Shown here piece after piece: positions 46,947-49,588 of a DNA stretch of 49,588 nt. The DNA comes from Chamaesiphon sp. 336R_metabinner_41. GTDB taxonomy: Bacteria; Cyanobacteriota; Cyanobacteriia; Cyanobacteriales; Chamaesiphonaceae. The translations under genes and the position numbers were made by a program. The notes beneath the pieces are model-generated. The model saw only the letters and a list, made by a program, of their open reading frames with translations, made no database searches and was not told where the DNA came from. Location of the stretch: contig JANYDE010000053.1 of NCBI GenBank assembly GCA_025359915.1, positions 1 through 49,588 of the forward strand, written 5' to 3'. Numbering within the stretch: position 1 is the stretch's first letter; each line of letters opens with the position of its first letter.

Positions 46947-47306
46947 TTATTTTGCCGATCGATTGGCACGCATCGCTTGATAAATTCCTTCAATCTTCGT
47001 CTTTTGATCTGTGCTCAGGTTAATACTATTCAATGCTTGCCGCATCTTTTCACCTGCTTGCATTTTTGTCTCTAATTCTTTAATTTGTGCTGGGGTTAAA
47101 ACAGCTTTAACTTGATTGCGAGTTTCCTCGCGTCTTTTCATCGCTTCTGGCGAGCGAGCTTGATTATTCCCCCCACTATTTACTTCACTAGGACTCGAAG
47201 AATTTTCGGTCGCTTTTGGCTGGTTGTCAGAACTTTTACATCCAGTGATTCCGGCTAGGAGAATCACACTGAGGAATAAAGGTGTAATAATTTGTTGCTT
47301 ATTCAT
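46947..47306 (-). CDS. Lipoprotein with Spy/CpxP-like LTxxQ motifs
   Basis: 119 residues. A lipoprotein signal peptide (LFLSVILLAGITGC) places the lipidated Cys at residue 23. A Ser/Asn-rich linker follows, then a helical domain with LTPAQIKELETKMQ and LSTDQKTKIEGIYQ, the LTxxQ-type repeats of periplasmic Spy/CpxP chaperones. It is likely an envelope-stress protein anchored to a membrane. It is short but complete. It is convergent with DUF1345 and divergent from acsF. Confidence 0.8.
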   Translation of the reverse strand: MNKQQIITPLFLSVILLAGITGCKSSDNQPKATENSSSPSEVNSGGNNQARSPEAMKRREETRNQVKAVLTPAQIKELETKMQAGEKMRQALNSINLSTDQKTKIEGIYQAMRANRSAK

Positions 47307-47405
47307 AAATAAATAAATGTCCCTTTAAAGATGCGATCAAAATGTTTGAATAGGATTATCCTAACCGTTCCGATCTAATTGCACATCACCTTAATTTCCT
47401 AAATT

Positions 47406-47450
47406 AACCAGGAAAAAAGTCACGATCGCTTTGTGACTTTTTTCCTGGTT
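47406..47450. promoter_or_regulatory. Perfect 18-bp hairpin in the lipoprotein/acsF divergent region
   Basis: AACCAGGAAAAAAGTCAC (47406-47423) and its exact reverse complement (47433-47450) enclose a 9-nt loop with GATCGC. It lies upstream of both divergent genes, 100 bp from the lipoprotein start and 380 bp from the acsF ATG, so it does not end either gene. It could terminate or attenuate a leader or an unannotated small RNA. Confidence 0.55.
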
Positions 47451-47831
47451 AGAGCTTTCAGAGAGACTAATTTTCTACCTGAAATAAAAAATAGTCTAAA
47501 TTAGGATGATTTCGTAAAAGCTTGGACAATAGATGGGTTCATACTTTTGGTGATTCTCTAAACACAGTTTTCTCCTCTAACTTTAACAGCTCTTGAAGTG
47601 AACCGATGTTAGCGATCTTGGTTGAGAAACTATTCAATCGTCGTGAGACGACGCGCAAGCTTCGAGTGGAATATTAGAATTTCAATATTTCTTTGGAAAT
47701 GGCTCAAGCCTGCTCCTGATAACGATGCTTTACTTTCAGTAACTATCGGGCAGCCACGGTAACTGACTTGTGTTCGATCGAGTATTCATGAACAATTGGT
47801 GCATAGCCATCCATCTCGATCGATTCACACT
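47451..47831 (+). other. Upstream region of acsF
   Basis: No coding frame is recognisable. Low-oxygen acsF-ho operons in cyanobacteria are controlled from such regions; I see no operator that I can name. A GTGAGACGACG stretch near 47642 and a Shine-Dalgarno-poor start are the only features noted. Confidence 0.35.
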
Positions 47832-48908
47832 ATGGTCAGTTCAATTATTAAATCAGAGTCGGCTGGTCTTCCATCCGGCATTAAAGCACCCGTTCAAGAA
47901 ACCCTATTAACGCCCAGATTTTATACTACTGATTTCGACAGGATCGCGCAGATGGATCTGTCTGGACAGGAGGAAGAATTGGCGGCAATTATGGCAGAAT
48001 TGCGGGCTGATTATAATCGACACCATTTTGTTCGCGATCGAGAATTTGAGCAATCCTGGGCGCATATTGACGGTGAAACCAGACTGGCATTTATTGATTT
48101 TCTAGAGCGTTCTTGTACTTCCGAATTTTCGGGCTTTCTATTATTTAAAGAACTCTCGCGCAAGCTCAAGGATCGTCAGCCTTTATTAGCAGAAGCTTTT
48201 GGCTTATTGGCACGGGATGAAGCGCGTCATGCTGGTTTCTTGAATAAGGCGATGTCAGATTTTGGATTGTCGCTGGATCTGAGCTATTTAACTAAAAATC
48301 GTACCTACACATTCTTTCCACCAGAATGGGTGATTTATAGTGTGTTTTTGTCGGAAAAAATTGGCTACTGGCGATATACTTTGGTGTTTCGCCATCTCGA
48401 ACAACATCCAGAACATCGCATCTATCCACTCTTTCGCTATTTCGATAATTGGTGCCAAGATGAAAATCGGCATGGAGATTTTTTCAAGGTGTTGTTACGA
48501 TCTCAGCCCCAACTATGGAATGGTTGGCAAGCAAAATTGTGGGCGCATTTTTTCCTGTTGACGGTATTTGTTACTCACACCCTGACGGTGTTGGAACGCC
48601 CGATATTTTATGATTCGATCGGTATCGATCCTCATGAATATAACAAAGAGGTAATTCATCATACTAATGAATCTGCTCGGCGGGCATTTTCAAGTATTTT
48701 AGATACTCACCACCCAGCATTATTCCCCCGTTTAGAGCAATGCGCGATCGCTAGTCAAAAGTTAGTAGAAATCTCTAACAATCAACAGTTTAAACCAATC
48801 CAATTTATCCAAAAATTACCTTGGATCGTGGTAATTGTCTGGCAGATGTTGCGACTTTATCTAGCCCCTAGCATCAATGCTGAAAAATCTAGGGCTGAAA
48901 TTCACTAG
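47832..48908 (+). CDS. acsF: Mg-protoporphyrin IX monomethyl ester (oxidative) cyclase
   Basis: Di-iron oxygenase that forms the isocyclic ring of chlorophyll, 358 residues from ATG 47832. The two ExxH iron-binding motifs are DEARHAG (Glu130, His133) and DENRHGDFF (Glu211, His214), with further conserved Glu in the EFSGFLLFKEL helix. The C-terminus ends with a hydrophobic membrane-associating segment (330-344). The context acsF followed by heme oxygenase on the same strand resembles the micro-oxic chlAII-ho2(-hemN) cluster, so this is probably the low-oxygen isoform. A short gene duplicating its C-terminus begins 11 bp downstream. Confidence 0.95.
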   Translation: MVSSIIKSESAGLPSGIKAPVQETLLTPRFYTTDFDRIAQMDLSGQEEELAAIMAELRADYNRHHFVRDREFEQSWAHIDGETRLAFIDFLERSCTSEFSGFLLFKELSRKLKDRQPLLAEAFGLLARDEARHAGFLNKAMSDFGLSLDLSYLTKNRTYTFFPPEWVIYSVFLSEKIGYWRYTLVFRHLEQHPEHRIYPLFRYFDNWCQDENRHGDFFKVLLRSQPQLWNGWQAKLWAHFFLLTVFVTHTLTVLERPIFYDSIGIDPHEYNKEVIHHTNESARRAFSSILDTHHPALFPRLEQCAIASQKLVEISNNQQFKPIQFIQKLPWIVVIVWQMLRLYLAPSINAEKSRAEIH

Positions 48909-48919
48909 GAGATATTGCC

Positions 48920-49162
48920 ATGATCGATCAAACAACACATCGCAGGAAAAGTAACCGTCCCAGCGTTTTAGATATTCATCATCTAGAATTCTCTACCCGT
49001 TTGGAGCAATGTGCGATTGCTAATCAGAAAATTGCGAAAATCTCCAGTAGTAATCGTTATCCAGTGATTCAACTTGGTCAAAAATTGCCCTGGATTGCCT
49101 TAATTTTATGGCAGTTGCTACGCCTTTATCTCCTAACGATTATTAACGCTGAAAATTTTTAG
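48920..49162 (+). CDS. Stand-alone duplicate of the AcsF C-terminal domain
   Basis: 80 residues. From about residue 9 it aligns with AcsF residues 283-352: RLEQCAIANQK against RLEQCAIASQK, and KLPWIALILWQLLRLYL against KLPWIVVIVWQMLRLYL, ending with INAEN against INAEK. The iron-binding part is absent. It has its own Shine-Dalgarno AGGAGA (48907-48912) 7 nt before ATG 48920, overlapping the acsF stop. Over 35 codons that I compared, 13 differ synonymously and 9 change the residue, so the peptide looks conserved rather than decaying. It may interact with AcsF, membranes or a partner such as Ycf54; function is unknown. Confidence 0.8.
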   Translation: MIDQTTHRRKSNRPSVLDIHHLEFSTRLEQCAIANQKIAKISSSNRYPVIQLGQKLPWIALILWQLLRLYLLTIINAENF

Positions 49163-49189
49163 ATCTAAAATTTATTAGGAGCTATTACT

Positions 49190-49567
49190 ATGAGTAATCT
49201 ATCGACTAGTTTACGAGAAGGTACCCAACAATCTCATACCGCCGCCGAAAATACGGCGTTTATGAAATGTTTGATGAAAGGGATTGTAGAGCGGGAGCCA
49301 TTACGTAAATTATTTGCTGATTTGTACTTTGTTTATGATGCCCTAGAAACAGCTTTGCGAAGTAATCTCGAACATCCGATGATCGGTGCTATTTATTTTT
49401 CAGAGTTAAATCGGGCGGAAAGTCTGGCTCAGGATCTCGCATTTTATTATGCTCACATCTTGCACCAATGCATAGATACTAGAATTGAATCGAAACTAAT
49501 TCTAACGCCAGCCCCTGAGAAGCCAGCAGATCTCGTTTACTCTCTATTTCTACTAGCAATAAGTTGA
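49190..49567 (+). CDS. ho: Heme oxygenase, apparently C-terminally truncated or broken
   Basis: Converts heme to biliverdin for phycobilin synthesis. The first about 85 residues are typical: MSNLSTSLREGTQQSHTAAEN with proximal heme ligand His16, FMKCLMKGIVEREPLRKLFADLYFVYDALE, and SLAQDLAFYY. After that the sequence no longer resembles the family, and a TGA ends it at 125 residues, where about 240 are usual. The distal-helix GDLSGGQ motif is missing. I find no other frame that restores it in the last 130 bp. The window ends 21 bp later, so more could lie beyond. The AGGAG at 49177-49181 is a good ribosome binding site. Confidence 0.75.
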   Translation: MSNLSTSLREGTQQSHTAAENTAFMKCLMKGIVEREPLRKLFADLYFVYDALETALRSNLEHPMIGAIYFSELNRAESLAQDLAFYYAHILHQCIDTRIESKLILTPAPEKPADLVYSLFLLAIS

Positions 49568-49588
49568 CAGCGGTTTTGGGAAGTAGTT

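Follow-up and report, generated by a model that had tools for sequence, protein, structure and literature searches.

The window analysed here, contig C11 in its entirety (49588 bases), belongs to a draft genome of 4.2 Mb (G000), and the right end of the contig carries three genes on one strand: acsF2 (47832..48908), an open reading frame of 80 amino acids with an ATG start, referred to below as the mini-gene, and ho2 (from 49190), separated by gaps of 11 and 27 bases. The features of this locus, together with a divergent regulator gene present at related loci, are as follows.

47680..47772, plus strand: operon leader with the blocks ATTTCTTT..AAATGGCT, AGTAACTAT and GGTA.CTGACTTGTG
47832..48908, plus strand: acsF2 (chlAII), for an oxygen-dependent Mg-protoporphyrin monomethyl ester cyclase; open, 358 aa, TIGR02029 E 1.6e-146; parent of the mini-gene's tail
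48907..48955, plus strand: Shine-Dalgarno region of the mini-gene (AGGAG; overlaps the stop codon of acsF2) together with its first 12 codons, derived from the ho2 start
48920..49162, plus strand: chimeric mini-gene (ho2-derived start and acsF2-derived tail), 80 codons, from the ORF list, AcsF tail models and selection tests
48959..49159, plus strand: acsF2-tail-derived part of the mini-gene (PSVLD... to the end), from alignment, with predicted helices at residues 17-43 and 48-79
49190..49451, plus strand: ho2 (heme oxygenase 2), 5' part only (bases 1-262), PF01126; broken by a repeat; parent of the mini-gene's start
49452..49588, plus strand: terminal part of a probable insertion sequence, a repeat with 14 near-identical matches in the genome including this one, at least 9 of them at contig ends
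L036 5413-5787, L037 5362-5736, L035 533-907 and L102 6614-7015 (related loci): divergent regulator gene, HxlR-type by Pfam PF01638 in L036 and L037 and by likeness in the other two

The body of the window's AcsF2 is 86% identical to AcsF2 of Microcoleus sp. CAN_BIN18 (L063). No transposase was identified in the repeat at 49452..49588; bases 547-747 of ho2 adjoin another copy of the repeat on contig C1 (L110, G000:C1:30488-30824), where by eye transporter genes rather than hemN come next, and the middle of the gene was not found. The leader is conserved in two operons of Microcoleus type and in the copies in genomes G001 and G007 that lack acsF2, in which it precedes the mini-gene, and its blocks AGTAACTAT and GGTA.CTGACTTGTG may be bound by a regulator. 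A small divergent regulator gene lies upstream in G002, G007 and on contig C154 of G001; the window's ORF list holds none before acsF2. Across 47300-49588 the only Rfam match was at chance level (RUF1, 21.6 bits, gathering threshold 70), and consensus promoters and terminators occurred at about the level of shuffled sequence (4 versus a mean of 6.0, and 2 versus a mean of 1.7).

In NCBIfam the product of the mini-gene matches the end of AcsF, at positions 278-352 of 361 in PRK13654 (E 3.3e-9) and 262-335 of 337 in TIGR02029 (E 5.7e-8), and at 36.4 and 32.2 bits, against curated cut-offs of 391 and 192.5, it is not a full-length AcsF. Within its own genome it is 51% identical to the tail of the adjacent AcsF2 (E 2.1e-20) and 34% identical to a second AcsF (contig C73). 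The diiron ligands of AcsF fall between E98 and H214 in Synechocystis numbering, according to the accessible text of PMC13297055, and the model matches of the mini-gene, which start at position 262-278, lie behind that region. The residues of the AcsF tail, by contrast, are retained, with 15 invariant positions in 13 aligned sequences (CAIANQK, QKLP and WQL regions). Pfam found no heme oxygenase domain in the product, the contribution of ho2 amounting to about 12 start codons only, and returned a single insignificant match overall; PADLOC and PHROGs gave no match, and neither did a search of the PDB with the profile of the tail. Relative to its nearest relative, the mini-gene of G002, the window copy contains an additional base close to its 3' end, and its stop codon comes five residues sooner.

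We compared the starts of the mini-genes with other gene starts over bases -12 to +36 minus the ATG (45 bases), using 264 other starts as controls, from which 16 ho2-like starts had been removed by a sequence pattern. The start of the window's mini-gene is identical at 25 of 45 positions to its own ho2 and at 29 to the ho2 of Microcoleus (L063), with a median of 23.5 over the 16 ho2-like starts as against a mean of 12.1 and a maximum of 22 over the 264 others. The corresponding values for the mini-gene of G002 are 30 with its own ho2, 32 with that of L063 and a median of 27 against a mean of 11.8 and a maximum of 22; that of G001 shares 25-26 positions with three named ho2 starts, and its median of 21 over the 16 stands against a maximum of 20 over the others. 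The protein starts are alike too (MSNQTTRRWEST in the mini-gene, MSNLSTRLREGT in ho2). On visual inspection, the homologous gene changes from ho2 to acsF2 at codons 13-14, the sequence being acsF2-like from codon 14 (PSILDTHH...), and the approximately 67 remaining codons derive from the acsF2 tail.

Chimeric genes can arise by tandem duplication across a gene boundary, which joins the start of one gene to the end of the gene before it. The mini-gene has this form, with a 5' end similar to the start of the downstream gene, a 3' end similar to the end of the upstream gene, and a location between the two. On these comparisons it is a chimera of the ho2 start and the acsF2 tail, and a tandem duplication over the acsF2/ho2 boundary would best explain it, since a duplication that begins within acsF2 and reaches into the first part of ho2 leaves such a joint in such a place and provides the new reading frame with the ribosome-binding site of ho2. 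The mini-gene of G001 is six codons shorter than that of G002 near the joint, a difference that an in-frame deletion would explain. In a maximum likelihood tree of 28 tails (72 columns, poorly resolved outside the mini-gene clade) the four complete mini-genes form one clade with support of 94/92, apart from both the resident AcsF2 tails and the Microcoleus-type tails, a grouping that assigns them a single origin. The original prediction of an intact 80-codon gene with its own Shine-Dalgarno between acsF and heme oxygenase was correct, as the frame at 48920..49162 is open; its description of this gene as a copy of the last 70 or so residues of AcsF holds for the roughly 67 acsF2-derived codons and not for the first 12 or so, which like the Shine-Dalgarno region come from ho2.

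Our family sample comprised 11 genomes, nine of the genus and two of its sister genus. Relatives of the mini-gene are present in three of the eight other genomes of the genus, with complete copies in G000 (the window), G002, G001 (contig C227) and G007; G001 has a fifth copy besides, lying at the end of contig C154, of which the first 26 codons are visible. The assemblies of G001, G002 and G007 are drafts in many pieces, with completeness of 82, 92 and 89, respectively, and a contamination of 6 in G002. G003, G004, G005, G006, G008 and the two genomes of the sister genus yielded neither a mini-gene nor an ho2 of this type. Their heme oxygenases are of the HO1 type only, at 47-49% identity, with none in G003, and in G004 and G008 there was no AcsF tail at all.

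The state of the operon differs among the genomes that carry the mini-gene. G002 has acsF2, mini-gene and ho2 without an adjacent hemN, and G000 has acsF2, mini-gene and the broken ho2. In G007 the order is mini-gene, ho2 and hemN, followed by another radical SAM gene and one for a desaturase; acsF2 has been deleted, and the deletion (L037 4847-5092, minus strand) fused up to about 12 of the first codons of acsF2 in frame to the body of the mini-gene, displacing its ho2-derived start. On contig C227 of G001 the mini-gene is accompanied by an acsF2 reduced to its start plus a stretch of its end, and on C154 a short acsF2 remnant is followed by the mini-gene and then the contig end. With the mini-gene on C227 of G001, about 22 codons of the ho2 start are fused in frame to a radical SAM gene (L034 2-841, minus strand), a second new chimera that uses the same start codon. 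Thus acsF2 is deleted in two of the four genomes (G007 and both loci of G001), ho2 is broken in G000 and was not found in G001, and no operon gene other than the mini-gene has kept an open frame in every one of the four, which taken alone is weak evidence because the mini-gene is short. Given that the mini-gene was kept where acsF2 was deleted, AcsF2 cannot be its only partner; the mini-gene is independent of AcsF2, and it must have a partner other than AcsF2 alone.

Beyond the family we searched 388 genomes of the order, 388 of the class at E <= 1e-18, and 40 relatives, these draws overlapping; in the order search most rows of one listing had no motif match and were left out. Among the matches listed for the order, open frames of fewer than 200 residues occurred only in G000, G001, G002, G007, G372 and G169; that of G372 (177 residues) belongs to a full-length gene truncated where its contig stops, and that of G169 (89) has no start codon. 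The latter is an AcsF tail remnant (L100 4409-4618) near an ho2-hemN pair on the other strand, and is an independent decayed acsF2. The 40 relatives added G020 (82 residues, the third fragment of a full-length acsF broken by frame shifts) and G035 (88, with a stop), and also returned the remnant on C154 of G001 (67, with stops), while the class search gave short frames in G000 and G169 only. Two peptide patterns applied to the contigs of named genomes found 12 loci, of which three are mini-genes (L062, L072 and L073, in G002, G001 and G007), eight are full-length acsF2 and one is cut by a contig end. Stand-alone mini-genes in other genera, considered as a possibility, did not appear in these searches, which much-diverged ones would escape, and none was present in those low-oxygen acsF loci of other genera that were examined, the place where the original prediction had proposed to look.

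Selection was assessed by counting and by codon models (our own code, a hand-set tree and F3x4 frequencies). The mini-gene differs from the resident AcsF2 tail by about 37 synonymous and 51 non-synonymous changes over 76 codons, for a dN/dS of about 0.14, a figure with saturated dS that also reflects the constraint on AcsF2. By counting, the mini-genes of the window and G002 have a dN of 0.162, a dS of 0.717 and a ratio of 0.23 (80 codons); for G001 and G007 the ratio is 0.44 when G007's replaced start is included, and over 58 homologous codons dN is 0.082 and dS 0.309. Model M0 gave the four mini-genes an omega of 0.25 over 58 codons (2dlnL 28.5 against omega 1), and neutrality was rejected for them in the codon models at p about 1e-7 (omega 0.25-0.29); pairwise fits within the two mini-gene lineages gave 0.34 (2dlnL 6.6) and 0.32 (2dlnL 4.6). 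On a joint tree with eight AcsF2 tails omega was 0.286 for the mini-genes, with omega = 1 rejected at p 9e-8, and 0.177 for the tails, with no significant difference in constraint between the two (p 0.10). A free-ratio fit placed the G001 end branch at the upper bound, nearly all of its changes being non-synonymous, which hinted at greater relaxation where ho2 is not intact; separating such mini-genes in a two-class model did not improve the fit (p 0.83), and with the two end branches lacking an intact ho2 as a class of their own omega 1 was still rejected (p 0.007).

In neutral simulations with substitutions only, all four frames stayed open in 0 of 4000 runs at each of three branch-length settings. 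With neighbour-like dS the G000 and G002 frames were both open in 6.5%, so this pair alone proves little. Between these two genomes dS is 0.72 for the mini-gene versus 0.22 for acsF2, 0.29 for the ho2 piece (91 codons, four of them past the repeat joint) and 0.22-0.54 for four genes of the AcsF1 contig; a fifth pair (dS 0.07, omega 1.26), whose ORF overlaps a gene on the opposite strand, and an ho2 row of 112 codons that extends beyond the joint (dS 0.42) were left out of the comparison. Synonymous divergence in the mini-gene (window 48920-49162 versus L036 3810-4067) is thus roughly threefold that in the adjacent acsF2. With the neighbours' dS as yardstick its ratio becomes 0.28-0.68 (window and G002) and 0.35-0.48 (G001 and G007), looser and still below 1. 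All four frames are open across a split at which the dS of ho2 is 1.56. A division of labour between mini-gene and AcsF2 tail was considered and rejected, since AcsF2 tails are no faster in mini-bearing genomes: body and tail identities to L063 are 0.874/0.726 in G002, 0.862/0.726 in the window and 0.870/0.726 in the mini-less L069.

The constraint on the amino acids of the mini-gene is therefore real but moderate, as seen in four sequences of one genus. It had been proposed from the many synonymous codon differences that the peptide has been kept by selection since an old duplication, and these results support both the old duplication and the selection, neutrality being rejected among the mini-genes. 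Of the outcomes named as telling against it, dN/dS near 1 was not observed (about 0.14 against the AcsF2 tail, 0.25 among mini-genes), and the gene is not absent from all relatives, being present in G001, G002 and G007.

Could the mini-gene nevertheless be a by-product, an accidental and non-adaptive chimeric frame heading for loss in an operon that is decaying in the genus? The operon is damaged in three of the four genomes (acsF2 is gone in G001 and G007, the ho2 of G000 is broken, and none was found in G001), hemN follows only the ho2 of G007 among the copies seen, and remnant tails occur elsewhere, as in the start-less frame of G169; the gene itself evolves fast at all sites, stops five residues short in the window, and shows no visible constraint on the G001 end branch. 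Rejection of omega = 1 under two model settings (p about 1e-7), and even for the end branches without an intact ho2 (p 0.007), speaks against this explanation, as do four frames open over the split with an ho2 dS of 1.56. We consider it disfavoured and unlikely, but still standing because the operon is decaying in the genus.

If the mini-gene were instead a cis-acting spacer, its translation coupling acsF2 to ho2 or holding ribosomes on the ho2 leader and its peptide being irrelevant, the need for an open frame alone would predict an omega near 1 without stops, rather than the 0.25-0.29 obtained. The mini-gene also persists without an intact ho2 downstream in G000 and on C227 of G001, and because of the omega and this persistence a role in coupling alone is disfavoured and appears quite improbable, despite an acsF2 stop that overlaps the next Shine-Dalgarno (TAGGAG) in G000 and G002, a mini-gene stop that does likewise in G002, the retention of TAGGAG before ho2 in G000 although the mini-gene there stops 27 bases before it, and the position of the mini-gene in G007 as the first frame behind the conserved leader.

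Descent from a complete second acsF, acquired by transfer or duplication and since reduced to its tail, is very improbable: the mini-gene is indeed closer to five Microcoleus-type AcsF2 tails (L063, L064, L066-L068; 64-70% identity) than to the resident tail (54%), but the mini-genes form their own clade outside those tails, and a deletion inside acsF, leaving the plain tail that had been named as a further outcome against the original prediction, gives no 5' end made of an ho2 start and its ribosome-binding region.

The product itself was modelled with AlphaFold2, which at low confidence (mean pLDDT 66.9, pTM 0.30) predicts helices at residues 17-43 and 48-79. The best model of AcsF2 (mean pLDDT 69.6; 35-61 in the other four) has matching helices at 297-316 and 321-343 near the chain end, and its fold bears a weak likeness to R2-like ligand-binding oxidases (best E 0.041, none at 0.001); a PDB sequence search with AcsF2 gave no matching chain. 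On the Kyte-Doolittle scale the four mini-genes have the most hydrophobic 19-residue stretches of 27 tails (1.71-1.89; next 1.62), while on the Eisenberg scale two AcsF tails (0.644 and 0.632) lie above the mini-gene of G002 (0.622). The Pro-Ser of YLLPS is replaced by T/A-I/V in all four, though the proline is displaced in some AcsF2 tails too (such as L070 and L103). The hydrophobic moment of the second helix is 0.09-0.23 in the four mini-genes, so that the membrane segment, which had been called amphipathic, is hydrophobic rather than strongly amphipathic. From these models the product would be a small, two-helix, membrane-associated protein.

Taken together, we favour, with a probability of about 0.53, a reading in which a chimera born by duplication encodes a peptide kept by selection, a membrane protein at the docking place of the AcsF tail that tunes a tetrapyrrole enzyme. 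In an ancestor of the Chamaesiphon group a segment from the last 70 or so codons of acsF2 into the first 12 or so of ho2 would have been duplicated in tandem, fusing the ribosome-binding site, start codon and first codons of ho2 in frame to the acsF2 tail and so creating a new gene of the operon. Purifying selection on its amino acids, as the codon models show for the four sequences, has since kept the gene, also in lineages without acsF2. Its product would lie on the thylakoid membrane by its hydrophobic C-terminal helix and, made alongside the low-oxygen enzymes, might occupy the docking place of the AcsF tail on the membrane, on AcsF1 or on a Ycf54-like partner, an occupancy that could tune the assembly or placement of a tetrapyrrole enzyme. 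The more specific proposal of a new cyclase-associated small subunit, a free AcsF tail that acts in trans on AcsF1, Ycf54 or a membrane docking site and has outlived its parent, we put forward only tentatively; the roles first suggested for the peptide, as a regulator or anchor of the cyclase or a competitor for a partner, are likewise speculative.

Compared with known systems, the mini-gene aligns through its last 67 or so residues with the C-terminal region of AcsF (TIGR02029, PRK13654), but it stands alone, without the diiron-binding part and with an N-terminus derived from ho2. ChlR is a MarR-type regulator, whereas the divergent gene that occupies its place here is HxlR-type by Pfam in the two examined. 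The chlAII-ho2-hemN operon is the low-oxygen operon of cyanobacteria in the accessible text of PMC4500134; acsF2 and ho2 have the same order here, G007 also has hemN downstream, and the clusters named in that text have no gene between chlAII and ho2. No structure of AcsF exists, and the enzyme has been modelled with Ycf54 and ferredoxin, according to the portions available of a 2026 review (PMC13297055). No role for the AcsF tail is given in the accessible parts of PMC4500134, PMC7319587 and PMC13297055, and neither a stand-alone AcsF tail nor a gene between chlAII and ho2 was found described in the literature covered, outside which most subscription literature lies. A tail that occurs naturally on its own, that is under selection and that can be separated from the enzyme offers a ready means of asking what the AcsF tail docks to. 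With chimeras made by boundary duplication the mini-gene shares the same joint, but here the duplication is inferred and a small protein was kept after the loss of its parent, and the gene is a clear example of how a small gene can originate at the joint of a duplication and capture a ready-made ribosome-binding site. Single domains of the orange carotenoid protein also have stand-alone homologues in cyanobacteria, and these are described proteins; the mini-gene is likewise part of a larger protein kept separate, in this instance in one genus and as judged from sequence.
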